Shown here: one piece after another, positions 9,970-44,990 of the stretch
Layout: each line of letters starts with the position of its first letter
Numbering within the stretch: the first letter of the stretch is position 1
NCBI RefSeq assembly: GCF_963664735.1
Contig: NZ_OY761553.1
Span: forward strand, 573,303 to 637,302
Reading direction: 5' to 3'
Length of the DNA stretch: 64,000 nucleotides
Origin: an uncultured Cohaesibacter sp.
GTDB taxonomy: Bacteria; Pseudomonadota; Alphaproteobacteria; Rhizobiales; Cohaesibacteraceae
Program-made: the position numbers and the translations under genes
Notes under the pieces: generated by a model
What the model was told of the DNA's origin: nothing
Databases searched by the model: none
Seen by the model: the letters and a program-made list of their open reading frames with translations, nothing else

Positions 9970-10384
9970 TCGGATACTCCCAAATTTTGAAAACTATTTG
10001 CTGTTGCTCATGGGGGAGAGGTTTGCTTAGAGCGACACCAACCCCTTCCTGACAACATAGGAATTGCGCTTTCGGTATCTGATTTTTCGTTAGGTAGCAA
10101 GCAGTCTTAGGACTGAATATAGGTGTTCTCTGAGAAAAAATGTAGGTTTTTCAGTGCTTTATCCTACAAAAGTATGAGCGCTACAGTCGAAAAACATTCA
10201 TTTTTGGCGAAGTAATTATCGCGATAAGACTATGCTTATTCCGATTAGATTTGGCAAGTGAAGAATCAATTTTTTATTTGTTGCGTAATTTCGCAGAAAT
10301 CTTACCAATTATGCCTTTTATACGTAAAAAGCCGACACTTAGGCCGGCTTTTAATTAATTATTCCAAGAGGGCTGTGTAAAACT
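9970..10384. other. gltX-gltA intergenic stretch, AT-rich, no gene seen
   Basis: About 415 bases without a plausible reading frame. It holds the gltX terminator near its right end and must contain the gltA promoter (minus strand), but I cannot single out a convincing promoter by eye. Confidence 0.5.
10327..10352 (-). terminator. Terminator of gltX
   Basis: AAAAGCCG and CGGCTTTT pair as an eight-base stem; read on the minus strand the second arm runs straight into a T-run. It lies about 30 bases beyond the gltX stop codon. Confidence 0.75.
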
Positions 10385-11806
10385 CTACAGAGCCTGATCC
10401 TTTAGACGGGCAATTGATTCATCTTTACCCAAAATGATCAGCACATCAAAAATGCCTGGAGACGTTGCTCGGCCAGTCATCGCTGCGCGGAGCGGCTGAG
10501 CGATCTTACCCAGCTTGAGTTCTTTTTCCTCAGCAAAAGTCCGGACAACTGCATCAGTGCTTTCCTGTGTCCATTCTTCTAGACCTTCAAGACGTGGCAA
10601 AAGCTCGCCAAGCATTGCCTTGGTTTCGTCCGTTAGGTGTTTGGCTGCCTTTTCTTCCATGGCAAGCGGACGCTTGTCGAACAGGAAGGCCAGACCGTCT
10701 TTCAGTTCGAGCAGGGTTTTGGCGCGTTCTTTTACGCTTGGCATGGCGACCATGATCTGAGCTTTTTTTGCATCATCGATCTGGTCAAGCATGTCATGTC
10801 CGTTTTCGAGGTGAGGCAAAAGAGAGACTAGTTGGTCGTAAAGCTCTTTGTCGTCAGTGTGGCGCATGTGAATGCCGTTCAGATTTTCCAACTTTTTGAA
10901 ATCGAAACGGGATGCGGCCTTGTTCATGCCTTCAAAGCCAAACCACTCGACCATCTGTTCAGTGGTCATGACTTCGTCGTCACCGTGTGCCCAACCAAGA
11001 CGCACAAGATAGTTGCGCATGGCAGCAGGCAGGTAGCCCATGTCACGATAAGCTTCGACACCAAGGGCGCCGTGGCGCTTGGAAAGCTTGGCCCCATCCG
11101 GGCCATGGATTAGCGGGATATGCGCCATTGTAGGAACATCCCAACCCAAAGCCCGATAGACGAGTGTCTGACGGGCCGCGTTGGTCAAATGGTCATCGCC
11201 GCGCATGATATGCGTAACGCCCATGTCGTGGTCATCGACCACAACAGCAAGGTTATAGGTCGGGTTGCCATCGGAGCGCATGATGATCATGTCGTCCAGA
11301 TCTTTGTTCGGGAACGTGACTGTACCCTGAACCTGATCTTCGATGACTGTTGTCCCTTCCTGTGGTGCCTTGAGGCGAATAGCAGGCTTGACGCCTTCTG
11401 GCGCTTCGGATGGATCGCGATCGCGCCATGTGCCGTCATAGCGGGGTGGGCGTTTTTCTGCGCGGGCCTTTTCGCGCATTTCGGTGAGCTCTTCAGGTGT
11501 GCAATAGCAACGGTAGGCTTTTCCTTCAGCGAGGAGTTGCTCAACAACTTCGCGATGACGTTCTACACGTCCATATTGAGAAATCGGATCCCCATCATAG
11601 GAGAGCCCCATCCATTCCATGCCTGCGATAATTGCATCAATCGCTGCATCAGTAGAACGCTCGCGGTCGGTATCTTCGATGCGGAGCAGCATTTTGCCGC
11701 CATTAGCTTTGGCATAGAGCCAGTTGAAGAGAGCGGTGCGAGCCCCGCCGATATGGAGAAAACCTGTCGGGGAGGGGGCAAAGCGCGTTACAACCTGTGA
11801 ACACAT
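10385..11806 (-). CDS. gltX: Glutamyl-tRNA synthetase GltX
   Basis: The enzyme charges tRNA-Glu. The 473-residue product has the class I signature [20 protein letters not shown] (HIGH-like HIGG), the insertion-domain blocks [10 protein letters not shown] and [20 protein letters not shown], and the KMSKS-like loop KLSKRHG. The helical anticodon-binding domain follows. Alphaproteobacteria often have two GltX paralogues with different tRNA preference; I cannot tell from this gene alone whether a second exists elsewhere. Confidence 0.96.
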
Positions 11807-29321: not shown

Positions 29322-31868
29322 ATGATAGAGAAGGGCTTTTCACAACCAACCGAGCGTGTTGTTCGGTTGAAAAACCAGATTCTGAACGCGACGCCTTTTG
29401 TAGAGTCCGAGCGTGCAGTTCTGGCTACTGAAGCCTACAAGGAAAGTGAACATCTTTCCCCGATCATGCGTCGCGCAAAAGTAGCCGAAAAGATTTTCAA
29501 TAATCTTCCGGTGACCATTCGCGACGATGAACTCATTGTAGGTGCCATCACCAAGAACCCGCGTTCAACCGAAATCTGCCCTGAATTCTCTTACGATTGG
29601 GTAGAAGCCGAGTTCGAAACCATGGCATCGCGCGTTGCCGATCCTTTCGAAATTCCGAAAGAAACCGCAGCTGAATTGCACGAAGCATTCAAATACTGGC
29701 CGAACAAAACCACCAGTTCCTATGCAGACTCCCTGATGTCTTCCGAGACAAAGGATTGCATTGCCAACGGCGTGTTTACGGTTGGCAACTACTTCTATGG
29801 CGGTGTTGGTCACGTTTGCGTTGACTATGGCAAGATCATGAAGATCGGCTTCCGCGGCATCATTGAAGAAGCCGTTAAGGCCATGGACGCAATGGACACC
29901 TGTGATCCGTCCTACATCAAGAAACGCCAGTTCTACGAAGCTGTTATCATCACCTACAATGCTGCAATCAACTTTGCACATCGTTATGCTGACAAGGCTC
30001 TGGAATTGTCCAGATCTGAAAGCAACCCGACCCGTAAGGCAGAACTGGAACAGATTGCCAAAAACTGTGCTCGCGTTCCTGAATATCCTGCTTCCAACTT
30101 CTGGGAAGCTTGCCAGACCTTCTGGTTCATTCAATCCATGATGCAGATTGAATCCTCAGGGCATTCCATTTCTCCGGGCCGTTTCGACCAGTATATGAAT
30201 GAGTATCTGCAGGCCGACAAATCTGTTGACCGCACCTTTGCTCAGGAACTGATTGACTGCATCTGGATCAAACTCAACGACGTCAACAAGACCCGTGACG
30301 AGATCTCTGCTCAGGCATTTGCCGGTTATGCAGTGTTCCAGAACCTCTGCGTTGGTGGTCAGACTTCAGATGGTCTGGATGCGACAAACGAAGTTTCCTA
30401 CATGTGCATGGAAGCTGTTTCTCATGTTCGTCTGCCAGCTCCGTCTTTCTCCATTCGCGTATGGCAGGGTACTCCTGACGAGTTCCTCTTCCGTGCTACC
30501 GAAGTGGTTCGTCTGGGCCTTGGCGTTCCGGCCATGTATAACGACGAAGTGATCATTCCGGCTCTGCAGAACCGCGGTGTTTCTCTTGCTGACGCTCGTG
30601 ATTACGGCATCGTCGGTTGCGTTGAGCCACAGCCAATTCATAAAGCTGAAGGCTGGCATGATGCTGCATTCTTCAACGTCGCCAAGATCCTCGAAATCAC
30701 CCTGCATGGTGGTAAAGTTGGCGAGAAACCAGGTCTGATCGGCAACAAGCAGCTCGGCCCGGTAACCCCTGACGTATCACAGTGGAAGTGCCTCGACGAT
30801 TTCTACGATGCTTTCGAAAAACAGATGGCTTACTTCGTTTACCATCTGGTTGAAGCTGATAACTGCGTTGACATTGCTCATGCCGAAATGGCTCCTCTGC
30901 CATTCCAGTCAGCCATGGTCGAAGATTGCCTTGGTCGCGGTATGTCTGTTCAGGAAGGTGGCGCACTGTACAACTTCACCGGCCCTCAGGCCTTTGGTGT
31001 TGCTGATACCGGTGACTCTGTCTATGCAATGAAGAAATTCGTCTTTGACGAAAAGAAAATCAGCCCGGCTGAACTGAAAGAAGCTCTGGTAAACAACTTT
31101 GGTCAGCCTGTCGGTGGTGCGGCTCCAGCAGCTGCCGAACTTACGGAAGACCAGGTCTATGCTGCTGTTCGCAAGGTTCTTGCCAACAACAACTCGACCG
31201 ATGTTTCTTCTCTGAAAGATCAGGTCTATCAGACGCTTGGTTCTGCTTCTGCGGCTCCTTCAGGCAAGTATGCTGAAATTCATCGTATGCTCGACAGTGC
31301 TGAATGCTTCGGTAACGACATTGATGAAGTCGACATGATCGCTCGCAAGTGCGCTGAGATCTACTGTAAGGAAGTCGAGAAATACACCAACCCACGCGGT
31401 GGCCAGTTCCAGGCAGGTATCTATCCTGTTTCTGCCAACGTTCTGTTCGGTAAAGATGTTGCTGCTCTGCCAGATGGACGTCTTGCAAAAGCTCCGCTTG
31501 CCGATGGTGTGTCTCCTCGTCAGGGCAAAGATACAAATGGTCCAACGGCTGCAGCAAACTCTGTTGCCAAGCTGAACCACTTCATCGCTTCCAACGGCAC
31601 GCTCTATAACCAGAAGTTCCTGCCTTCCGCTCTTGCTGGCGATAACGGCATCCTGAACTTCACTTCGGTTGTGCGTTCCTACTTCGATCACAAAGGCATG
31701 CATGTCCAGTTCAACGTTGTGAACAGGGATATTCTGCTTGCAGCTCAGCGTGAACCTGAAAAACACAGAGACCTCGTGGTCCGCGTGGCCGGGTATAGCG
31801 CTCAGTTCGTCGTGCTCGCCAAGGAAGTGCAAGACGACATTATCAGCCGTACTGAACAAACCCTCTAA
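29322..31868 (+). CDS. Glycyl radical diol dehydratase (1,2-propanediol/glycerol type), microcompartment signature enzyme, with internal insertion
   Basis: From ATG 29322 (GGAGG five bases upstream) the product has 848 residues. The thiyl Cys is C433 with E435 (GIVGCVEPQ), and D447 follows in GWHDAAFF; H164 is in GVGHV and H281-S282 in SSGHSIS. These numbers coincide with the residues known for the B12-independent glycerol dehydratase of Clostridium butyricum. Choline lyase instead has Thr and Tyr at positions +13 and +17 from the Cys; here they are His and Phe. The glycyl radical residue is G824 (RVAGYSAQF), 61 residues later than in that enzyme. The difference is a segment at about residues 594-654 with an Ala/Pro linker and amphipathic helices, resembling encapsulation peptides. 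The reaction is probably 1,2-propanediol to propionaldehyde, inside the shell. Confidence 0.93.
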   Translation: MIEKGFSQPTERVVRLKNQILNATPFVESERAVLATEAYKESEHLSPIMRRAKVAEKIFNNLPVTIRDDELIVGAITKNPRSTEICPEFSYDWVEAEFETMASRVADPFEIPKETAAELHEAFKYWPNKTTSSYADSLMSSETKDCIANGVFTVGNYFYGGVGHVCVDYGKIMKIGFRGIIEEAVKAMDAMDTCDPSYIKKRQFYEAVIITYNAAINFAHRYADKALELSRSESNPTRKAELEQIAKNCARVPEYPASNFWEACQTFWFIQSMMQIESSGHSISPGRFDQYMNEYLQADKSVDRTFAQELIDCIWIKLNDVNKTRDEISAQAFAGYAVFQNLCVGGQTSDGLDATNEVSYMCMEAVSHVRLPAPSFSIRVWQGTPDEFLFRATEVVRLGLGVPAMYNDEVIIPALQNRGVSLADARDYGIVGCVEPQPIHKAEGWHDAAFFNVAKILEITLHGGKVGEKPGLIGNKQLGPVTPDVSQWKCLDDFYDAFEKQMAYFVYHLVEADNCVDIAHAEMAPLPFQSAMVEDCLGRGMSVQEGGALYNFTGPQAFGVADTGDSVYAMKKFVFDEKKISPAELKEALVNNFGQPVGGAAPAAAELTEDQVYAAVRKVLANNNSTDVSSLKDQVYQTLGSASAAPSGKYAEIHRMLDSAECFGNDIDEVDMIARKCAEIYCKEVEKYTNPRGGQFQAGIYPVSANVLFGKDVAALPDGRLAKAPLADGVSPRQGKDTNGPTAAANSVAKLNHFIASNGTLYNQKFLPSALAGDNGILNFTSVVRSYFDHKGMHVQFNVVNRDILLAAQREPEKHRDLVVRVAGYSAQFVVLAKEVQDDIISRTEQTL

Positions 31869-33532: not shown

Positions 33533-34354
33533 ATGAATAACGATCTTGTCGAACAGATCATGGGCGAGGTTATGCGCAAAATGGGGTCGGAAAGCGCTTC
33601 CGCCCCCGCACAACCTGCAGCCCCTGAAGCCAGCTGTGCAGCAAAAGTGCCAGCAGCTTGTGGTCTGACAGAATTTGTTGGAACAGCCATCGGCCATACC
33701 ATTGGTCTGGTTATCGCAAACGTGGATTCAGCTCTGCATGAGCAGATGAAAATCGACAAAAAATACCGTTCCATCGGTATTGTCGGTGCCCGTACCGGTG
33801 CTGGTCCGCACATTTTTGCGGCTGATGAGGCCGTTAAGGCAACCAACAGTGAAATCATCTTGATCGAACTGCCTCGCGATACAGAAGGTGGTGCCGGTCA
33901 CGGTTCATTGATCCTGTTTGGTGCTGAAGACGTTTCTGATGCACGTCGTGCAGTGGAAGTTACTCTTAGCGAAGTAGAACGCACCTTTGGTGATGTTTAT
34001 GGCAACTCAGCAGGTCATCTGGAGTTCCAGTATACCGCACGTGCCAGCACTGCGCTTAACAAGGCATTTGGTGCGCCGATTGGTCAGTCCTTCGGTATCA
34101 CCGTAGGTGGCCCTGCTGCTATCGGCGTTCTGTTGGCTGATACCGCTGCGAAAGCTGCTACCGTTGATGCTGTTGGGTATTCTTCACCAGGCAATGGCGG
34201 CACCAGCTTCTCGAACGAAGTGATCTTCACCTTCAGCGGCGATTCAGGTGCTGTTCGTCAGGCCATCATTGCTGCTCGTGAAGTTGGCAAGCAGGTTCTC
34301 AAAGCCATGGAACCTAGTGAGGATCTTCCATCCAGCACCACCCCTTACATCTGA
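33533..34354 (+). CDS. pduB: Trimeric tandem-BMC shell protein (PduB type)
   Basis: The 273-residue product has an N-terminal extension MNNDLVEQIMGEVMRKM followed by an Ala/Pro linker, then SLTEFVGTAIGHTIGLVIA-like BMC domain 1 and the second BMC domain (FGDVYGNSAGHLEFQYTARAS, SSPGNGGTSFSNE). Overall it aligns well with Salmonella PduB, whose N-terminal peptide helps attach enzyme cargo to the shell. AAGGAG precedes the ATG, 25 bases after the PduA-type gene. Confidence 0.95.
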   Translation: MNNDLVEQIMGEVMRKMGSESASAPAQPAAPEASCAAKVPAACGLTEFVGTAIGHTIGLVIANVDSALHEQMKIDKKYRSIGIVGARTGAGPHIFAADEAVKATNSEIILIELPRDTEGGAGHGSLILFGAEDVSDARRAVEVTLSEVERTFGDVYGNSAGHLEFQYTARASTALNKAFGAPIGQSFGITVGGPAAIGVLLADTAAKAATVDAVGYSSPGNGGTSFSNEVIFTFSGDSGAVRQAIIAAREVGKQVLKAMEPSEDLPSSTTPYI

Positions 34355-34375: not shown

Positions 34376-35032
34376 ATGTCGCAAAAAAGCCTAGGCTTGA
34401 TTGAAACGACAGGTTTGACAGCTGCCATTGAAGCTGCCGACGCTGCTGTGAAATCTGCGAATGTCGAACTGATTGGCTACGAATTAGCCAAGGGAGGCGG
34501 CATGACGACCGTCAAACTTTACGGAGAAGTCGGGGCTGTGAATGCCGCGATTGATGCCGCGAAGGTCGCCGCCGCTAAAGTGAACAAGGTTGTATCAACC
34601 CGGGTCATTGCCAGACCTGCTGATGGCATGGAAGCAATTGTCATCACAAAAGAAACGGTTGGTGCTGACCTCCCAAAGCCTCCTGAGCCTCCTGAACCAA
34701 CTCCACCTACTGGTGGAGGCGACGGGCCGAAATCCGGTCCTGACAATTCTGGTGAAGGTGGCTCGGACAAGAGCGCTGAAGCAACTGGTGAAGACAGTGG
34801 AGACCCTCACCCTGCGCAAGAGCAGAGCGAGGGGGCCGCAACAGACATTGCAGCCGAACAAACTGAAGACGCCAAGTCGCAAGAAAGCGTAAAGGAGCCT
34901 GAAAAGACTGCAGAACTGGCTTTGGAGCCAGTCGCTGAGGTCAAGTCGATCGAGAGTGCGAAGCCTAAATCTTCGACTACTCAGCAGGCTGCGACGCGCA
35001 AAACGGGAAGAGGCAGACGCAGACGCGCCTGA
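34376..35032 (+). CDS. BMC-H shell protein with a long acidic disordered tail ending in an arginine cluster
   Basis: Residues 1-90 form a BMC domain (SLGLIETTGLTAAIEAADAA, YGEVGAVNAAID, RVIARPADGME). A Pro-rich linker (PKPPEPPEPTPP) then leads into about 100 low-complexity residues rich in Glu, Asp, Ser, Gly and Ala, and the chain ends TGRGRRRRA. Extended BMC-H proteins exist (PduK, EutK), but PduK ends in a cysteine motif and EutK in a helix-turn-helix; neither is seen here. The tail could face the lumen and bind cargo, or lie outside and contact nucleic acid or a positioning system. AAAGGAGG precedes the ATG. Confidence 0.88.
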   Translation: MSQKSLGLIETTGLTAAIEAADAAVKSANVELIGYELAKGGGMTTVKLYGEVGAVNAAIDAAKVAAAKVNKVVSTRVIARPADGMEAIVITKETVGADLPKPPEPPEPTPPTGGGDGPKSGPDNSGEGGSDKSAEATGEDSGDPHPAQEQSEGAATDIAAEQTEDAKSQESVKEPEKTAELALEPVAEVKSIESAKPKSSTTQQAATRKTGRGRRRRA

Positions 35033-35117: not shown

Positions 35118-35774
35118 ATGCAACTGACTGAGCAAATGATCGAAAAAGTTGTCGCCGATATTCTGGCGCAAGCAACGAGCAAAGCGGCATCAATGAGCGA
35201 TCCAGCCTTGGTACCGGTTGGGGTTTCAAACCGTCATATCCACCTTTCCAAAGAAGATATGGAAGTGCTGTTTGGCCCTGGGCAAAATTTGCGTCGCATG
35301 AAGGCGATGAAACAACCCGGTCAATTTGCAGCCGAGGAAACAGTTACTCTTAAAGGCCCCAAAGGCGAGCTACGGCGCGTGCGGGTTCTCGGGCCTTTTC
35401 GCAAGGATACACAAGTCGAGATTTCGGTATCAGACGGCTTTTCGTTGGGCATCAAGGCTCCAATGAGAATGTCTGGAGACCTAGATAACAGTGCCGGACT
35501 GGAAGTGGTCGGGCCACTCGGATCCGTCAAATTGGAGCAGGGCGTTATCGTTGCTCAAAGACATATTCACATGCATCCCGACGATGCCAAAAAGGCCTGC
35601 TTGTGCAATGGCGATATTGTCGATGTGGAAGCCCAAGGGCCGCGCGGTGGCATTCTCAAGAATGTGGCTGTGCGCGTGTCAGAAGCCTCGGCTTTGGAGA
35701 TACACATTGACGTCGAAGAAGCCAATGCCTTGGGGCTCAAGAACAATGACAATGTGCGGATTTGCAAATCCTGA
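35118..35774 (+). CDS. pduL: Phosphate acyltransferase PduL
   Basis: PduL turns acyl-CoA and phosphate into acyl phosphate and CoA, recycling CoA inside the compartment. The 218-residue product has an N-terminal amphipathic encapsulation-type helix (TEQMIEKVVADILAQA) and then the two beta-barrel halves with zinc-ligand motifs VSNRHIHLS and AQRHIHMHPDDA. DGFSLGIKAPMRMSGD is also typical. The product acyl phosphate would need an acyl kinase for ATP, and none lies in this window. Confidence 0.95.
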   Translation: MQLTEQMIEKVVADILAQATSKAASMSDPALVPVGVSNRHIHLSKEDMEVLFGPGQNLRRMKAMKQPGQFAAEETVTLKGPKGELRRVRVLGPFRKDTQVEISVSDGFSLGIKAPMRMSGDLDNSAGLEVVGPLGSVKLEQGVIVAQRHIHMHPDDAKKACLCNGDIVDVEAQGPRGGILKNVAVRVSEASALEIHIDVEEANALGLKNNDNVRICKS

Positions 35775-37812: not shown

Positions 37813-38337
37813 ATGTTGACGGCAGAAAACAGGGAGTTGATTGCGCAGCTGATCAATCGCGAGATTGCGCGAGTGAGCCCTGGTCTCCAGAACCAGACCC
37901 TGACTTTGCAGGAAGCCAAGCTTTTGGCGGACCTTGCGCAGAGGGAGTCTTTGAGGATTGGTGTGCCAATTGTTGTTTCGATTGCGGATCCCTCCGGTCA
38001 ACAAATCCTGTTTCATCGGATGGAAAACAGCCTGCCGGTGAGTTCTCAACTGGCGACCGACAAGGCCTATACAGCAGCGACCTTTCGCATGAGTACCGAG
38101 GCGTTGGGAAAACTGGCCCAACCCGGTGAAATGCTTTTTGGCGTGCAAGCCAACATTGGCGGGCGCGTCGTGATTTTCGGCGGTGGCGCTCCCTGCTACC
38201 GCGATGGTGCCGTGATCGGTGCCATTGGAGTGAGTGGAGGCACTGCATATGAGGATATGCAGATCGCCGAGCGCGCTCTGACCCAATTTTCGGATAAACC
38301 AGAGCCCGTCTCTGAGGAAGGAAGAAACCGTGAATGA
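37813..38337 (+). CDS. PduO C-terminal/GlcG (HbpS)-like protein with N-terminal targeting-like helix
   Basis: The 174-residue product has the GlcG/HbpS domain (GVPIVVSIADPSGQQILFHR, DKAYTAATFRMST, GGAPCYRDGAVIGAIGVSGG) found at the C-terminus of PduO and alone in many GRM loci. Its biochemical role there is unknown; haem or cobalamin binding has been described for relatives. The first 20 residues (ENRELIAQLINREIARV) form an amphipathic helix like an encapsulation peptide. It overlaps the aldehyde dehydrogenase start by eight bases, so translation is coupled. Confidence 0.85.
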   Translation: MLTAENRELIAQLINREIARVSPGLQNQTLTLQEAKLLADLAQRESLRIGVPIVVSIADPSGQQILFHRMENSLPVSSQLATDKAYTAATFRMSTEALGKLAQPGEMLFGVQANIGGRVVIFGGGAPCYRDGAVIGAIGVSGGTAYEDMQIAERALTQFSDKPEPVSEEGRNRE

Positions 38338-40027
38338 TCAACAGATCTCCGAAGCTGTAACAAGAGTGCTTAGCAGCTTTGGTGGAGCGAGTGCCGCGCC
38401 TGCGGTTCCTGCTCCGGTCAAAAATATTGCGGTGGCAAAAAAGACCCCCAATGAGGATCAGGTGACCAATCTTGTCGCTCAGATTCTTGGTGAAAGCAAA
38501 AATGTCAGCGGCGCGAAAAATGCGGAATATGTTCCAAGTCCGACAAAATGTGGCTGGGAACGGTCTGATAAGTCTGCCGCCAAAGATGACTGCATGGTTT
38601 CCGATGTGATCGCCAAAGTGCTTACAGAAACGATGAGCCAAAAGCCATGCGCTAATGCAAAACCTGCTTGTGCTTCTTTGGACATTTCCGATGCTGAAGC
38701 AACCGAGCTTGGTGACGGTGTTTTTGCAACGATGGATGAAGCCGTCGAAGCGGCCGCAGTTGCTCAGAAGCAATATCTCTTCTGCTCGATGGAAGAACGC
38801 CAGACCTTTATTGATGGTATCCGTGAAGTGATCTTGCAGCCCGACATTCTGGACCGGATTTCCCGTATGGGAGCTGAGCAGACTGGCATGGGCAAATATG
38901 AACACAAGATCATCAAAAATCGTCTCGCTGCCGAAAAGACGCCGGGCACCGAAGACCTGACGACCGAGGCTTGCAGTGGTGACGGCGGGCTGACTTTGGT
39001 GGAATATTCGGCCTTTGGTGTCATAGGTTCCATTACACCGACCACGAACCCGACGGAAACCATCATTTGTAACTCGATCGGCATGTTGGCCGCAGGCAAC
39101 TCTGTCGTTTATAGCCCGCATCCACGCGCTCGGGTGGTTTCCTTGCTGACGATCAAACTGATCAACCGCAAGCTGGCTACCCTCGGGGCTCCGGCCAACC
39201 TGATTACCACGGTGCAGGAACCATCCATCGACAACACCAATGCAATGATGCAGCATCCGAAAATCCGCATGCTGGTTGCCACCGGTGGGCCGGGTATTGT
39301 TAAAACGGTCATGTCCACCGGCAAAAAGGCCATCGGCGCCGGTGCAGGCAACCCTCCGGTCGTGGTTGATGAAACTGCTGATATTGAGAAGGCTGCGGTT
39401 GATATCATCAATGGATGCAGCTTTGACAATAACCTGCCATGCATCGCAGAAAAGGAAATTGTCGCGGTCAATCAGATTGCTGACTATCTGATTTCCTGCA
39501 TGACCAAATGCGGTGCTTATCTGGTGGAAGATCCTGCAGTGGTCAAGAAACTGGAGGAGCTGGTTATCAGTGATAAGGGCGGGCCGCAGACCTCTTGCGT
39601 GGGTAAAAGTGCCGTCTACCTACTCGACAAGGTTGGTATCAAGGTCGGGGAAGACATCAAGGTCATTCTCATCGATCTGCCCAAGGACCATCCTTTTGTG
39701 CAAGTCGAGTTGATGATGCCAATCCTGCCATTGGTTCGGGTGCCAGATGTGGACGAAGCGATTGATTTCGCCGTTGAGGTTGAGCATGGCAATCGCCACA
39801 CAGCGATGATGCATTCTACCAATGTTCGTAAGCTGACCAAGATGGCCAAGCTCATCCAGACAACAATCTTCGTTAAAAACGGTCCGTCTTATGCGGGTAT
39901 CGGTGTCGGCGGTGAAGGATATACGACCTTTACCATCGCCGGGCCAACCGGAGAGGGGCTGACTGGGCCGAAGGCCTTTGCTCGCAAACGCCGGTGCGTG
40001 ATGGTTGAGTCTCTCAATGTTCGATAG
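38330..40027 (+). CDS. CoA-acylating aldehyde dehydrogenase (PduP/EutE-like) with three encapsulation-peptide-like helices
   Basis: The enzyme converts the aldehyde to acyl-CoA with NAD+. The core from about residue 120 has VIGSITPTTNPTETIICNS, the NAD-binding region VATGGPGIVKTVMSTG and the catalytic Cys (C371 in FDNNLPCIAEKE). The 565-residue length is about 100 more than PduP. The extra sequence is at the N-terminus and holds three short amphipathic helices at residues 4-17 (QQISEAVTRVL), 42-55 (EDQVTNLVAQIL) and 88-102 (CMVSDVIAKVL), separated by Ala/Pro/Lys-rich linkers. One such helix is the norm. The start is GTG 38330 with GGAAGG upstream; no ATG is in frame nearby. Confidence 0.94.
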   Translation: MNDQQISEAVTRVLSSFGGASAAPAVPAPVKNIAVAKKTPNEDQVTNLVAQILGESKNVSGAKNAEYVPSPTKCGWERSDKSAAKDDCMVSDVIAKVLTETMSQKPCANAKPACASLDISDAEATELGDGVFATMDEAVEAAAVAQKQYLFCSMEERQTFIDGIREVILQPDILDRISRMGAEQTGMGKYEHKIIKNRLAAEKTPGTEDLTTEACSGDGGLTLVEYSAFGVIGSITPTTNPTETIICNSIGMLAAGNSVVYSPHPRARVVSLLTIKLINRKLATLGAPANLITTVQEPSIDNTNAMMQHPKIRMLVATGGPGIVKTVMSTGKKAIGAGAGNPPVVVDETADIEKAAVDIINGCSFDNNLPCIAEKEIVAVNQIADYLISCMTKCGAYLVEDPAVVKKLEELVISDKGGPQTSCVGKSAVYLLDKVGIKVGEDIKVILIDLPKDHPFVQVELMMPILPLVRVPDVDEAIDFAVEVEHGNRHTAMMHSTNVRKLTKMAKLIQTTIFVKNGPSYAGIGVGGEGYTTFTIAGPTGEGLTGPKAFARKRRCVMVESLNVR

Positions 40028-40154: not shown

Positions 40155-40457
40155 ATGAATGCAAGGATCATCAATGCGCCGCAACCAGATGTGCTGCTGA
40201 TGCTTCAACGCCGCATGCCTCCGCATGGCCGGACATGGGTCAAGGAACATAGCGTCGGCTCCATCGGTCTCATGCAGGTCAGTGTTACGGATCTGTTTTT
40301 CTTCTCAGATCTTGCTCTTAAGGCAGCAGACGTATTCACCGTCGAAATATATGGCACATGCCCTCAGCATGTAACGACCTTGGCAGTTTTGGGTGAGACC
40401 TCTGCCGTGAAAGCTGCAATGGAAGCGATCGAGATTGCAGGACAAACCAGCTTCTGA
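40155..40457 (+). CDS. grpU: GrpU-type BMC-H shell protein with an iron-sulfur pore motif
   Basis: The 100-residue product is a permuted BMC-H protein of the EutS/PduU/GrpU group: RIINAPQPDVLLMLQRRMP at the start, SIGLMQVSVTDLFFFSDLALKAADV, then LGETSAVKAAMEAIEIA. It carries YGTCPQH. The motif G-x-C-P-Q was described for GrpU shell proteins of GRE microcompartments, where three or more Cys from neighbouring subunits hold an Fe-S cluster in the pore. Electron transfer across the shell has been suggested for that cluster. GGGGAG precedes the ATG. Confidence 0.88.
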   Translation: MNARIINAPQPDVLLMLQRRMPPHGRTWVKEHSVGSIGLMQVSVTDLFFFSDLALKAADVFTVEIYGTCPQHVTTLAVLGETSAVKAAMEAIEIAGQTSF

Positions 40458-41455: not shown

Positions 41456-42604
41456 ATGCGTAGACGGCTCGTAAGTGCAGAGTCGGTAACCGAGGGGCAT
41501 CCGGACAAGGTCTGTGATCAGATTTCCGATGCCATATTGGATGCCTATCTCGAACAGGACAAGAATGCGCGGGTTGCTGCAGAGACCGTAGCTGCTGGTG
41601 ACACGGTCTTTGTCGCTGGCGAAATTACGTCTCATGCTCATCTTGAAGTGACGCCGATTGTTCGGAAAACGATCCGGGAGATTGGCTATACAGATTCTGA
41701 AATTGGCTTTGATGCCGATCATTGTTTCCTGATTACCGACCTTAGAGAACAATCCCCAGACATCGCTCAGGGGGTTTCTCTTAACGGCGATATAGGCGCT
41801 GGTGATCAGGGAATTTTCTATGGGTTTGCTTGCGATGAAACGCCAACTTTCATGCCGGCACCCATTTACTATGCTCATCAATTGACCCGATCCTTGGCAA
41901 AGGCGCGCCACGATGGTTCGCTTCAATGGTTGCGTCCGGACGGTAAGGCTCAAGTGACATTCGTCTATGACGAAAATGGCCAGCCGGCTGAGGTGAGCAG
42001 TATCGTTGTTTCGACTCAACATGCTCCTGAAGTTGATAATAATTCTATTGTGCGTGGGGTGTTGGAACAGGTTGTTTGTCCAGTTTTGCAGCAATGGATT
42101 CGTTCTACGACCAGAGTGCACATAAATCCCACAGGACGATTTGTGGAAGGTGGTCCAAAAGCGGATACGGGCTTGACCGGGCGTAAGCTGATGGTTGATA
42201 CTTATGGAGGAATTGCCAGACATGGAGGCGGAGCTTTTTCTGGCAAAGATCCTACAAAAGTCGACAGATCAGCAGCCTATTACGCTCGCTATATCGCCAA
42301 GAATATCGTAGCTGCAGGTCTGGCAAGAAAATGCGAAGTTTCTCTAGCTTTTGCTATTGGGCAGACGGAACCTGAGATGGTTGATGTTGAGACATTTGGT
42401 ACATCAGTCGTCGACACGGACAAGTTGGTCAATGCTGTTAAGGACGCGTTTCCTCTTACGGTTTCCGGGATGATCGGTACACTGGATTTGCGTCGGCCAA
42501 TTTACAGGCAAACCGCAGCTTACGGGCATTTTGGCAGAGAAACCGAAGCGTTTCCATGGGAGGGAGTGGAACGTGCAGCAATCTTACGAAGGTTCTGCGA
42601 ATGA
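41456..42604 (+). CDS. metK: S-adenosylmethionine synthetase (MetK) encoded in the microcompartment operon
   Basis: The 382-residue product has all hallmarks of bacterial methionine adenosyltransferase: SVTEGHPDKVCDQISDA, GDIGAGDQGIFYGFACDE, the P-loop-like GGGAFSGKDPTKVDRSAAY and the C-terminal GHFGRE. It makes SAM from methionine and ATP. GAGAGGAG precedes the ATG 38 bases after the activase stop, and the sensor-kinase start overlaps its end by 32 bases, so it is a true operon member. A local SAM source for the activase is the natural reading; whether it is the only metK of the genome is unknown. Confidence 0.93.
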   Translation: MRRRLVSAESVTEGHPDKVCDQISDAILDAYLEQDKNARVAAETVAAGDTVFVAGEITSHAHLEVTPIVRKTIREIGYTDSEIGFDADHCFLITDLREQSPDIAQGVSLNGDIGAGDQGIFYGFACDETPTFMPAPIYYAHQLTRSLAKARHDGSLQWLRPDGKAQVTFVYDENGQPAEVSSIVVSTQHAPEVDNNSIVRGVLEQVVCPVLQQWIRSTTRVHINPTGRFVEGGPKADTGLTGRKLMVDTYGGIARHGGGAFSGKDPTKVDRSAAYYARYIAKNIVAAGLARKCEVSLAFAIGQTEPEMVDVETFGTSVVDTDKLVNAVKDAFPLTVSGMIGTLDLRRPIYRQTAAYGHFGRETEAFPWEGVERAAILRRFCE

Positions 42605-43931
42605 GGAGATAATTAGCTGGGGAGGAGAACAGGAAGAACTATCAGGAAAAGGTGATAAGGGCGCCCATATCGCTCGCAAGAAACTGTCCGATCTTATCAG
42701 CGTGGAGGTGCTGCAGAAGGTTCAGGATGATTTCAGTGCGGCAGTCGGTGTTGCTATCGTTATAGTTGATCCTGATGGTGTGCCTGTTACGCGTCCAAGT
42801 GGCTTTACTCCTTTTTGCAATACTGTGCGCAAGATGGATAAATTGCGCGAGCGGTGTTTTCATTGTGACGCAGTGGGCGGGCGTATTGCCTTGTCGACAG
42901 GTGAGCCGTCCATCTATAAGTGCCATTGTGGGCTGGTGGATTTTGCAGCGCCGATCATCATGAAAGATCAATATATTGGGGCGGTTATCGGTGGTCAGGT
43001 TCATTTGACGGATTTGCATGAAGGGGCAGATTTGGAGGACATGTCCAATCTGTTTGCCTCTGGAGATGCATGGGATGTAGACAAGCAGCTTGTCGAGTTG
43101 CATGAGGGTGCTTGGCAGCTGCCATATGATCGGCTTAGAAGTGCGGCTTACTCCCTGCTCAATATTGCGTCTCATTTGGCTGAAGAGAGCTACTCCAACG
43201 TTGTTTCTCAAGAGCTCTACGTCAAGAATATGCGCTTGATGGAAGAGTCAAAGAAACGCGCCGAGCTGGAGCGGTCTTTGCGAGAGGCGGAATTGCAGGC
43301 CTTGTCCTATCAGGTCAATCCGCATTTTCTTTTCAATGTTCTCAACACGATTTCCCGTTTGGCGCTGATTGAAGAAGCCGAAGAAACCGAAAAGACGGTG
43401 CATGCTTTTGCCGATATGATGCGCTACATCCTGAAAAAGAGCGGCAGCCAGTTTGCTCCTTTGGGAACCGAGGTGGAGCATGTCAAAAACTATCTTTATT
43501 TACAGAAACTTCGCTTAGGCGATCGGTTTGAAGTCTCTTTCGATGTGCCCGCGCAATTTAGTGAAGTGCTTTGTCCCTTCATGATCTTGCAGCCCATCGT
43601 CGAAAACTGCATCAACTACGCAGTGGAGCCCAGAGAGAGCGGAGGCCTTATCAAGATCAATGCCTATTCTGATGACCATGATCTGATCGTGGATATCGAA
43701 GATAATGGCGAGGGCATTTCTCAGAAGAGAAAACAATCTGTTCTTAAAGGTGAATCCGAGCACGGTAATCGCAAAAGCATTGGTATTTTCAATGTCGGGA
43801 GCAGGTTGCGTCACTTTTTCGGCGAGGAATATGCTCTGGAAATTGTGAGCCCTTACCGGCAAGGCAAGGGGACGCTTGTACGCATCAGGTTACCTTTGGA
43901 ATTCGATCCCTGTTCTGTTCAGATCAAGTAA
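42573..43931 (+). CDS. Soluble PocR-domain sensor histidine kinase (LytS-type)
   Basis: The 452-residue product from GTG 42573 (GGGAG upstream) has no membrane segment. Residues about 40-190 form a PocR-type ligand-binding domain (VGVAIVIVDPDGVPVTRPSGF, CxxC-like RCFHCDAVGG, YKCHCGLVDFAAPI), known from regulators of propanediol use. A short coiled coil leads to a His_kinase/LytS-type dimerisation region with H251 in SYQVNPHFLFNVLNTISRL and an ATPase domain (VENCINYAVEPRESGG, IEDNGEGIS). It probably senses the diol, or an intermediate, in the cytoplasm and controls the AraC-type regulator encoded next. Confidence 0.9.
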   Translation: MQQSYEGSANEEIISWGGEQEELSGKGDKGAHIARKKLSDLISVEVLQKVQDDFSAAVGVAIVIVDPDGVPVTRPSGFTPFCNTVRKMDKLRERCFHCDAVGGRIALSTGEPSIYKCHCGLVDFAAPIIMKDQYIGAVIGGQVHLTDLHEGADLEDMSNLFASGDAWDVDKQLVELHEGAWQLPYDRLRSAAYSLLNIASHLAEESYSNVVSQELYVKNMRLMEESKKRAELERSLREAELQALSYQVNPHFLFNVLNTISRLALIEEAEETEKTVHAFADMMRYILKKSGSQFAPLGTEVEHVKNYLYLQKLRLGDRFEVSFDVPAQFSEVLCPFMILQPIVENCINYAVEPRESGGLIKINAYSDDHDLIVDIEDNGEGISQKRKQSVLKGESEHGNRKSIGIFNVGSRLRHFFGEEYALEIVSPYRQGKGTLVRIRLPLEFDPCSVQIK

Positions 43932-43964
43932 AGACGTTCCTCGTCATCTGTTAGGAGTTAAGTC

Positions 43965-44990
43965 ATGTATGATGTTGTCATCGTCGAAGACGAAGAATTG
44001 GAACGTCGCGCCTTGCGAACAATTTTGAGCAAGAAAGTTGATGGCATCAATATCGTTGGCGAGGCCCGTAACGGTACTGAAGCAATGAACCTGATCAATA
44101 ACAATTCTATTGATCTGATGCTCGTTGATATCAATATTCCCAAGCCAAATGGGCTGGAAATCATTCAGTCGTTACGCCAACGAAACATGAATACCAAGGT
44201 CGTTATCCTGACCGCATATGACTATTTCGAGATCATGCAAAAGGCCATCCATTTGAAAGCGGACAGCTTTTTGTTAAAGCCGGTAAAGACCGATGAACTG
44301 TTGGGGGTGGTAAACGGTTGCCTGAGTGATTTGGGCTCCCGTCGCACGCACAATGCTATCGCCGATCAGATCTGGGATTTGATGGAGCGTCGGGAGTATC
44401 GGGATTGTCTTACTCTGGTTCGAAAGCATCTGGAGTCGATCTATGCTCGCAAGGATGAGGCTCCGCGGCAGGCTGTTTTGGAGTTTTCTGACGAGCTTCT
44501 ATTGCTATCGGAAAAGCGTCAGGTTGACCTATCTACGGACCTATTGGTTCAGATCGCCAATCTGAAAAAGGAGCGTCTTGATGCTCGTAGTCGTAACCGA
44601 ATCCATAGCCTGTTCTGTCAAATCGTCGATGCCTTGTTTCTGGTTACCGAGGAGCATTTCGGGCGCTCTCCAGAGCGTATGCAAAATGTATTGAACTTTA
44701 TCGAGCGCAACATAGGCAAGGATATCACTCTGGAGGATGCCGCGAGTTGCGCAAGCGTTAGTCCTTGTTATTTCTCGCGATTATTTAAAAAGACCATAGG
44801 GGAGACCTTCGTTGCCTATGTGAAACAAAGACGCATGGAGCATGCGAAGAATATGCTTGAGAGCAGTGATATGCCGATCATGAATATCGCGCTCGACTTG
44901 TCGTTTCACGATATCAACTATTTTGCCAAGGTATTCAAAAAGGAGGTCGGCTTGACGCCTAGTGAATTCAGGCGCCAAAACCGGAAATGA
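43965..44990 (+). CDS. AraC-type response regulator (REC plus helix-turn-helix)
   Basis: The 341-residue product has an N-terminal receiver domain with acidic pocket E8-D9, phospho-acceptor D55 (LMLVDINIPKPNG) and K in LLKPVKT, a helical linker, and two C-terminal AraC helix-turn-helix motifs (TLEDAASCASVSPCYFSRLFKKTIGE and MNIALDLSFHDINYFAKVFKKEVG regions). This YesN-like type pairs with LytS/YesM-like kinases. It sits 33 bases after the kinase gene with AGGAG upstream. A two-component system downstream of the cluster was shown to control the GRM3 genes of Rhodobacter capsulatus. Confidence 0.92.
   Translation: MYDVVIVEDEELERRALRTILSKKVDGINIVGEARNGTEAMNLINNNSIDLMLVDINIPKPNGLEIIQSLRQRNMNTKVVILTAYDYFEIMQKAIHLKADSFLLKPVKTDELLGVVNGCLSDLGSRRTHNAIADQIWDLMERREYRDCLTLVRKHLESIYARKDEAPRQAVLEFSDELLLLSEKRQVDLSTDLLVQIANLKKERLDARSRNRIHSLFCQIVDALFLVTEEHFGRSPERMQNVLNFIERNIGKDITLEDAASCASVSPCYFSRLFKKTIGETFVAYVKQRRMEHAKNMLESSDMPIMNIALDLSFHDINYFAKVFKKEVGLTPSEFRRQNRK

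Follow-up and report, generated by a model that had tools for sequence, protein, structure and literature searches.

Three encapsulation peptide-like segments in series on the aldehyde dehydrogenase of a Cohaesibacter GRM3 microcompartment locus

Introduction

PduP-type aldehyde dehydrogenases of bacterial microcompartments (BMCs) reportedly carry a single N-terminal encapsulation peptide (EP), as ascribed to Fan 2010. Here we analyse the enzyme of this type that is encoded in a glycyl radical enzyme (GRE)-associated microcompartment locus, of the class GRM3, of an uncultured Cohaesibacter sp., and report that its N-terminal extension contains three EP-like segments in series. The whole stretch of DNA that was analysed, 64,000 nucleotides in length, is called the window. 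EPs of PduP drive condensation (PMC12339742), EutE without its EP stays spread in the cytosol, the EP being what drives targeting (PMC12487888), and EPs may bind between shell tiles (PMC11157265). The single N-terminal EP of PduP/EutE-type enzymes, such as that of EutE (PMC12487888), resembles the segments described here in helix class, position and enzyme family, and is unlike them in consisting of one helix.

The closest described system is the GRM3 aldehyde dehydrogenase of R. palustris BisB18 (PDB 5JFL/5JFM/5JFN), a tetramer with a two-helix EP and with disordered N-termini that point in different ways (PMC5311937). It shares with the window enzyme the enzyme family, the GRM3 locus, serial amphipathic helices on disordered linkers and a close catalytic domain. 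It differs in having two helices instead of three and in lacking a P-x4-C-x-W block, and its nearest rows in our tree have two, three and one EPs. Whereas the published form comprises exactly two helices in about 75 residues, the window enzyme has three segments in 127 residues and, in addition, the motif. Multi-helix EPs in GRM3 aldehyde dehydrogenases are already known, as two helices. A prediction made earlier for this DNA (the original prediction) held that PduP-type enzymes have one such peptide, which is untrue for GRM3, since the two-helix EP of the R. palustris enzyme was in print in 2017 (PMC5311937).

Two further systems invite comparison. The internal EP of the GRM3 GRE (PMC5311937, PMC6325248) also places multiple helices in the EP region of a cargo protein from the same locus, but it is inserted inside the enzyme and its helices are nearly contiguous. 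The engineered series of one, two or three PduP EPs on mNeonGreen, named EP1, EP2 and EP3 in PMC12339742 and here called serial EP1 to EP3, likewise places up to three EPs with linkers on one chain. As described there, however, these are artificial identical repeats on a monomer, whereas the window enzyme has natural, diverged helices, a presumed tetramer and a conserved linker motif.

Results

The aldehyde dehydrogenase of the window begins with an extension of 127 residues, in which the EP-like segments EP1, EP2 and EP3 occupy residues 1-18, 40-57 and 85-102 (Table 1; positions in the extension are residue numbers of this enzyme). Each contains a nonamer of the form h-x-x-h-h-x-x-h-h, at residues 6-14 (ISEAVTRVL), 45-53 (VTNLVAQIL) and 90-98 (VSDVIAKVL), and the nonamers fall inside the three ranges (residues 4-17, 42-55 and 88-102) in which the original prediction had placed amphipathic motifs. 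Two profiles and shuffled sequences agree with that placement. The first profile was built from 33 single-EP peptides of orthologous aldehyde dehydrogenases. Three extension sites score above 2 with it, a score that is by itself not EP-specific because one catalytic-domain helix reaches 8.7, and when residues 1-125 were shuffled the scores of ranks 1, 2 and 3 were attained in 0.2%, 0 and 0 of 2000 shuffles. The second profile, aimed at less circularity through orthology, was built from N-terminal stretches of PduL (42 of 62 used), PduB (20 of 44) and GlcG-like proteins (19 of 52), with alphaproteobacteria excluded; the first profile served to choose these stretches, and the resulting 68 distinct peptides probably include helices that are not EPs. 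With the second profile EP1, EP2 and EP3 are the top three sites of the entire protein, the following extension site scoring -7.1 and the catalytic domain at most 6.3, and their ranks were attained in 1, 0 and 0 of 2000 shuffles of residues 1-127. By this profile all three are of the EP sequence type, a short amphipathic segment of about 15-20 residues. All three are probably alpha-helical.

Table 1. Coordinates of the aldehyde dehydrogenase, the parts of its extension and other features of the window.
Feature	Position	Strand	Evidence
CoA-acylating aldehyde dehydrogenase gene (GRM3-type), 565 residues, GTG start	38330-40027	+	open reading frame list
EP1, residues 1-18 (MNDQQISEAVTRVLSSFG)	38330..38383	+	profile scores 12.4 (first), 14.6 (second); dN/dS 0.039
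Linker 1, residues 19-39, Ala/Pro-rich	38384..38446	+	sequence
EP2, residues 40-57 (PNEDQVTNLVAQILGESK)	38447..38500	+	profile scores 9.3 (first), 8.0 (second); dN/dS 0.11
Conserved linker motif block, residues 66-78, core P69-x4-C74-x-W76	38525..38563	+	P69, C74, W76 invariant in 9/9; dN/dS 0.061
Motif core, P69-W76	38534-38557		between EP2 and EP3
EP3, residues 85-102 (KDDCMVSDVIAKVLTETM)	38582..38635	+	profile scores 8.1 (first), 8.2 (second); dN/dS 0.108
Catalytic domain, PduP/EutE type, stop codon included	38711..40027	+	NCBIfam NF011927, PDB 5jfl/5jfn
Two EP-like helices in insertion inside GRE, its residues 615-651	31140..31250	+	profile scores 11.3, 5.1
N-terminal EP-like helix of PduB	33533..33586	+	score 19.0; NF011944
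BMC-H with long tail	34376-35032
N-terminal EP-like helix of PduL	35124..35177	+	score 13.9; NF011652
GlcG/HbpS-like gene	37813-38337
N-terminal EP-like helix of GlcG/HbpS-like protein	37825..37878	+	score 11.4; PF03928
GrpU-type shell protein	40155-40457		PDB 4olp E 3e-24
Second metK	41456-42604
PocR-like sensor histidine kinase, then AraC-type response regulator	42531-44990

On eight other intact alphaproteobacterial extensions the first profile places EP1 top in seven and EP3 top in one (Telmatospirillum L012), and the second and third ranks beat shuffles throughout (p 0.033 or less), several of them with low scores. The hydrophobic moment, strongest in EP1 among the helices, was rejected as the only evidence for EPs because it is too weak. 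It is scarcely credible that the extension is merely a disordered, low-complexity chain with accidental amphipathic stretches: the best hydrophobic-moment site outside EP1 does lie within the range of shuffled sequences, but the shuffle tests with both profiles, purifying selection within Cohaesibacter and the recurrence of the arrangement across families all argue otherwise.

The enzyme itself matches NF011927 with 716 bits (cut-off 403), and its nearest solved structure is the R. palustris BisB18 enzyme (phmmer E 8e-229 for 5jfl). C371 pairs in the alignment with a position printed X in 5jfn, a modified active-site Cys (PMC5311937), and by family profile and catalytic Cys the protein is a CoA-acylating aldehyde dehydrogenase of the PduP/EutE type. 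It is 90% identical to the C. marisflavi aldehyde dehydrogenase. By analogy with R. palustris, from which the GRE substrate is taken, it is probably the propionaldehyde dehydrogenase of a B12-independent 1,2-propanediol microcompartment. Matching the extension to domains and structures gave nothing of worth, a flavodoxin entry having E 1.4.

We then compared rates of change along the protein, using 15 non-independent pairs among six Cohaesibacter sequences, three of them near-identical. The ratio of nonsynonymous to synonymous substitution rates (dN/dS) is 0.021 in the catalytic domain and 0.43 in the pooled linkers, and the three segments and the motif block lie between these values (Table 1). 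Variable columns number 2/18 in EP1, 5/18 in EP2, 6/18 in EP3 and 3/13 in the motif block, compared with 39/60 in the linkers (Fisher p 5e-5, 0.006, 0.018 and 0.007, respectively). The linkers between the helices, 21 and 27 residues long, are thus poorly conserved, and their Ala/Pro-rich sequence is consistent with the flexibility that the original prediction ascribed to them. The dN/dS of about 0.11 in EP2 and EP3, as opposed to 0.43 in the linkers, suggests that both are maintained. Across nine alphaproteobacterial proteins, M1, D3, I6, V10, L14, P69, C74 and W76 are the only invariant residues of the extension, and EP1 alone among the helices holds any. Since invariance is confined to EP1 and the motif, EP2 and EP3 persist as a pattern and not as a sequence. 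Mean BLOSUM scores are 0.97-1.34 between EP positions, and 2.50, 1.09 and 1.73 within EP1, EP2 and EP3, which makes EP2 sequences no more similar to one another than to helices at the other positions. The question which helix was added could not be settled in this way, since gammaproteobacterial EP2 scores 1.20 against alphaproteobacterial EP2 and 1.28 against EP3, which is not decisive.

Conservation of the first helix only, the outcome that the original prediction set against itself, is not what the six Cohaesibacter sequences display, all three helices being under purifying selection relative to the linkers; it is approached, however, in that invariant residues occur in EP1 alone and the contrast of EP2 and EP3 with the linkers is not significant in two other congeneric pairs. 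It is possible, though doubtful, that EP1 alone targets the enzyme and that EP2 and EP3 are weak, redundant copies that add avidity for the shell without any cross-linking or scaffold role. Besides holding the invariant residues, EP1 has a lower dN/dS and a stronger hydrophobic moment than the other two helices; it remains where the others are lost (L112), and no aggregation of the two-EP R. palustris enzyme was seen in the work described in PMC5311937. Such redundancy sits poorly with the low dN/dS of EP2 and EP3, with the retention of the three-helix form across several families and with L012, in which EP3 scores higher than EP1 with the first profile.

To place the three-EP form among related enzymes, we used, among other data, a scan that kept 80 of 129 relatives and that favours close relatives, because its patterns include the N-terminus of the window enzyme; plasmid matches (21 records) were left out of the EP comparison. 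Three EPs are found in 15 of 18 distinct intact alphaproteobacterial sequences, six of the 15 being Cohaesibacter. The 15 are the window, L007, L087-L090, Rhodovulum L008 and L011, Breoghania L009, Rhodobium L010 and its congener L091, Telmatospirillum L012, Salipiger L013, Aliiruegeria L015, and L111. Gammaproteobacterial enzymes have two EPs by reading, and a one-helix pattern in a short extension occurs in 60 of 64 non-proteobacterial loci, mostly Firmicutes, whose one-EP label was assigned by exclusion (L071 has no EP by eye). A comparison of N-termini, proposed by the original prediction for GRM3 aldehyde dehydrogenases, gives three EPs for most of the alphaproteobacterial enzymes examined, two for those of gammaproteobacteria and a single one for most from outside the Proteobacteria. 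Neither this distribution nor the P-x4-C-x-W motif was part of that prediction.

The labels were set partly by reading, as a strict pattern that allows no Pro disagrees with them in several sequences. It finds at least three helices in 11 of the 15 motif-bearing sequences and two in L008, L011, L091 and L111, where by eye an adjacent Pro or the stricter position accounts for the failure. It finds one in gammaproteobacterial L094 and L095, read as two-EP, and three in L110, called two-EP; an extra match occurs in L007, and second matches in five of six Firmicutes lie, by eye, in the catalytic domain. In the Breoghania metagenome-assembled genome L014 (around 10000-10430) the extension is frame-broken, EP2, motif and EP3 being out of frame with EP1 and the catalytic domain, which may be an assembly error or real. 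L014 is absent from the helix counts, appears in both trees labelled as three-EP and was counted as motif-free.

In the catalytic-domain tree R. palustris, with two EPs, is sister to L012, with three (support 100/97). Once three genomes were added, the tree paired R. palustris with L110 (98/91) and L012 with L112 (98/93), while L111, with three EPs and the motif, stood apart in an unresolved fork. The simplest reading would be that three EPs plus motif are old in alphaproteobacteria and were shortened at least twice; gains are also possible. Few genomes carry the enzyme. With a threshold of E 1e-150 and the centre genome included, it occurs in 7/297 genomes of the window's order, 1/394 of the Rhodovulum family, 4/297 of the Telmatospirillum order and 15/295 of the Raoultella family, and in a class-wide sample at E 1e-120 only in the window's own genome (1/385). 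Within the window's genus four other genomes have the enzyme at 89-92% identity, and six more listed genomes are without it. A tie between multiple EPs and the presence of a GRE was rejected as a rule, for 7 of the 64 one-EP loci also have a GRE match. Each of the seven GREs has one EP-like match in the stretch before the radical domain. Six of these loci carry a second, more distant aldehyde dehydrogenase, so that it is ambiguous which enzyme pairs with the GRE.

Between EP2 and EP3 lies a conserved block, its limits drawn from conservation, with the core P-x4-C-x-W. Besides the window, 17 of 106 loci, all three-EP, have the motif core in frame and ahead of the catalytic core; none of the other 89 has it, L014, L110 and L112 among them. 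As L092, L093 and L109 repeat L010, L008 and L012, the 17 loci represent 14 distinct sequences, and the motif is present in all 15 distinct three-EP sequences, window included. R. palustris lacks the block. Among 1363 locus proteins, obtained by crude picking of open reading frames that misses some aldehyde dehydrogenases, [YFW]-x-P-x4-C-x-W is found in aldehyde dehydrogenases only, and the short P-x4-C-x-W occurs 11 times, four times in aldehyde dehydrogenases and seven times scattered over other proteins. The extension might exist mainly to carry the motif, which would bind a specific partner (shell protein, GRE or activase) or form a redox-sensitive Cys link, the helices serving to position it. 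The exclusivity of the longer form, and the fact that P69, C74 and W76 share invariance with just five positions, all in EP1, speak for such a role. We nevertheless consider it highly improbable, given the scattered occurrences of the short form, the lack of a worthwhile domain or structure match for the extension, the two-EP relatives that do without the motif, and the comparison of 13 window genes, none of which separates motif bearers from two-EP loci. As a partner of the motif GrpU is not favoured, since it is found in 8/8 three-EP and 7/7 two-EP loci.

The window holds everything that marks a GRM3 locus: a GRE with an internal EP insertion, as described for GRM3 in PMC5311937, an activase, PduL, PduB, BMC-H, BMC-P, and aldehyde and alcohol dehydrogenases. 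The genes run GRE, Fe-alcohol dehydrogenase, BMC-H, PduB, a long-tailed second BMC-H, PduL, EutJ-like, weakly PduM-like, EutN/BMC-P, GlcG-like, aldehyde dehydrogenase, GrpU, activase, MetK, sensor kinase and AraC-type regulator. The first thirteen keep their order in 8/8 intact three-EP loci inspected, apart from two genes that are not separately placed: the second BMC-H in L009, where its best match is the first BMC-H, and the GlcG-like gene, whose best match in L012 lies elsewhere. L113 (genome of L110) and L114 (genome of L111), both from the order of L012, have matches to all thirteen. EP-like helices are found not only in the aldehyde dehydrogenase and the GRE but also in PduB, PduL and the GlcG/HbpS-like protein (Table 1), and the PduM-like protein has one by the first profile. 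The GlcG/HbpS-like protein is possibly encapsulated; its gene ends at 38337, and the GTG start of the aldehyde dehydrogenase at 38330 sits within its final codons, an overlap of 8 bases.

Other genes of the locus have features of their own. The second BMC-H has a tail of some 130 residues in which Pro, Glu and Ser abound and which terminates in a basic GRGRRRRA, and a basic stretch at or near the tail end is also seen in L007, L013 and L015. GrpU binds Fe-S (PMC6325248), and at E 1e-5 it has no match in the 64 one-EP loci. Directly after the activase stands a second metK, which shares 51% identity with the genome's other copy; MetK matches lie within all of the intact three-EP loci of alphaproteobacteria inspected (8/8) and within many further loci, and the second copy perhaps provides a dedicated supply of S-adenosylmethionine (SAM) to the radical-SAM activase. 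A PocR-like sensor histidine kinase, its kinase part read from the sequence, is followed by an AraC-type response regulator, and matches to both are found in the same 8/8 loci. Around L112, GRE, activase, PduB and GrpU were not found within 19 kb, which may mean that its single EP belongs to a different type of compartment. In L115, an alphaproteobacterial microcompartment locus, PduL, EutJ-like, BMC-H and a one-EP aldehyde dehydrogenase are present, and the four proteins just named were not found in 19 kb.

Discussion

Multivalent docking would be the likeliest role of the three EPs. With moderate confidence we propose that they form a tandem on flexible linkers of a tetrameric propionaldehyde dehydrogenase, with EP1 as the main docking helix, EP2 and EP3 as accessory stickers and the linker motif as an extra binding motif. 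EP1, present in every alphaproteobacterial form seen, would be the canonical docking helix. EP2 and EP3 would add contacts to the EPs of other proteins (GRE, PduL, PduB, GlcG-like), to shell proteins, or to both; the candidate partners are the two helices of the GRE and the single helices of the PduB, PduL, GlcG-like and PduM-like proteins. With three EPs per subunit a tetramer could present up to 12, and the added contacts would make recruitment of the enzyme during assembly firmer. P-x4-C-x-W would be a further short binding motif particular to the three-EP form.

Several observations weigh against this proposal or weaken the evidence for the segments. The first profile scores above 2 at two catalytic-domain sites as well (3.0 and the 8.7 given above), and in L009 and L010 its top three sites omit EP3, one top site not being a helix by eye. 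The best 11-mer by hydrophobic moment outside EP1 is within the range of shuffles (p 0.23, with 0.02 for the second rank and 0.0015 for the third), and around residue 75 a site that is no EP ties with EP2. In the PduP EP an E/R salt bridge has been described (PMC12339742, section 8), which by eye is out of register in the window helices. Beyond Cohaesibacter, EP2 and EP3 do not differ significantly from the linkers in the Rhodovulum pair (p 0.09) or the Rhodobium pair (p 0.28), and in the latter EP3 varies like the linkers (5/18 vs 20/85). Among the alphaproteobacterial exceptions, R. palustris and L110 have shortened extensions with two EPs (alternatively three crowded ones in L110) and no motif block, and L112 has one EP; EP2 and EP3 are thus dispensable in evolution. 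The two-EP R. palustris enzyme was soluble and did not aggregate, and the authors of PMC5311937 suggested contact with shell proteins only. Finally, serial EP3 was no better than serial EP2 in vitro, which the authors attribute to self-quenching, the chain satisfying its own helices (PMC12339742, section 10).

Self-quenching leads to a further possibility, namely that the three helices form an intramolecular bundle which masks the EPs until shell proteins or partner EPs open it, and which would act as a brake on premature aggregation. PduP EPs prefer trimers, and in simulations serial EP3 closes all of its binding sites on itself (PMC12339742, section 10); linkers of 21 and 27 residues would permit such closure, and the related R. 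palustris enzyme is soluble (PMC5311937). We regard a bundle as quite unlikely, since association of serial EPs in vivo is taken in section 11 of PMC12339742 to be intermolecular, and since it leaves the P-x4-C-x-W motif unexplained. According to the same section, partitioning in vivo rose with EP copy number, serial EP3 reaching up to ninefold; far better still was a tetramer bearing a single EP.

The proposal of docking by accessory stickers may be extended. Divergence of the helices could, speculatively, lessen self-closure or allot different partners to each. Unlikely in our view, though worth stating, is that the enzyme is a natural enzyme-scaffold: three diverged EPs with different partners and P-x4-C-x-W as a dedicated docking motif, 12 EPs and four motifs per tetramer, would nucleate the core before shell closure, and the series of one, two and three EPs would represent evolutionary tuning of condensate valency. 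Of the original prediction, the three segments in series are borne out; the multivalent scaffold that would cross-link enzymes and shell is a proposal on which the nearest published experiments are divided, with no aggregation in R. palustris and no gain of serial EP3 in vitro, but more partitioning in vivo. In the carboxysome, CsoS2 and CcmM network cargo through repeated binding elements in a disordered chain. The likeness is one of works-like analogy only, for these are dedicated scaffold or scaffold-fused proteins and the window protein is an enzyme; no Pfam match links its extension to either.

We did not find three natural EPs in series, the three-EP form as the type commoner among the alphaproteobacteria sampled here, or the P-x4-C-x-W block in the openly licensed papers that were searched. 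Conclusions based on R. palustris, such as the absence of aggregation, may not hold for the three-EP form, because the R. palustris enzyme lacks the motif block. If there is a second kind of docking signal, P-x4-C-x-W is a concrete candidate for it. With orthologous enzymes that carry one, two and three EPs, moreover, the effect of EP copy number, for which artificial serial EPs were used in PMC12339742, becomes testable on real cargo.

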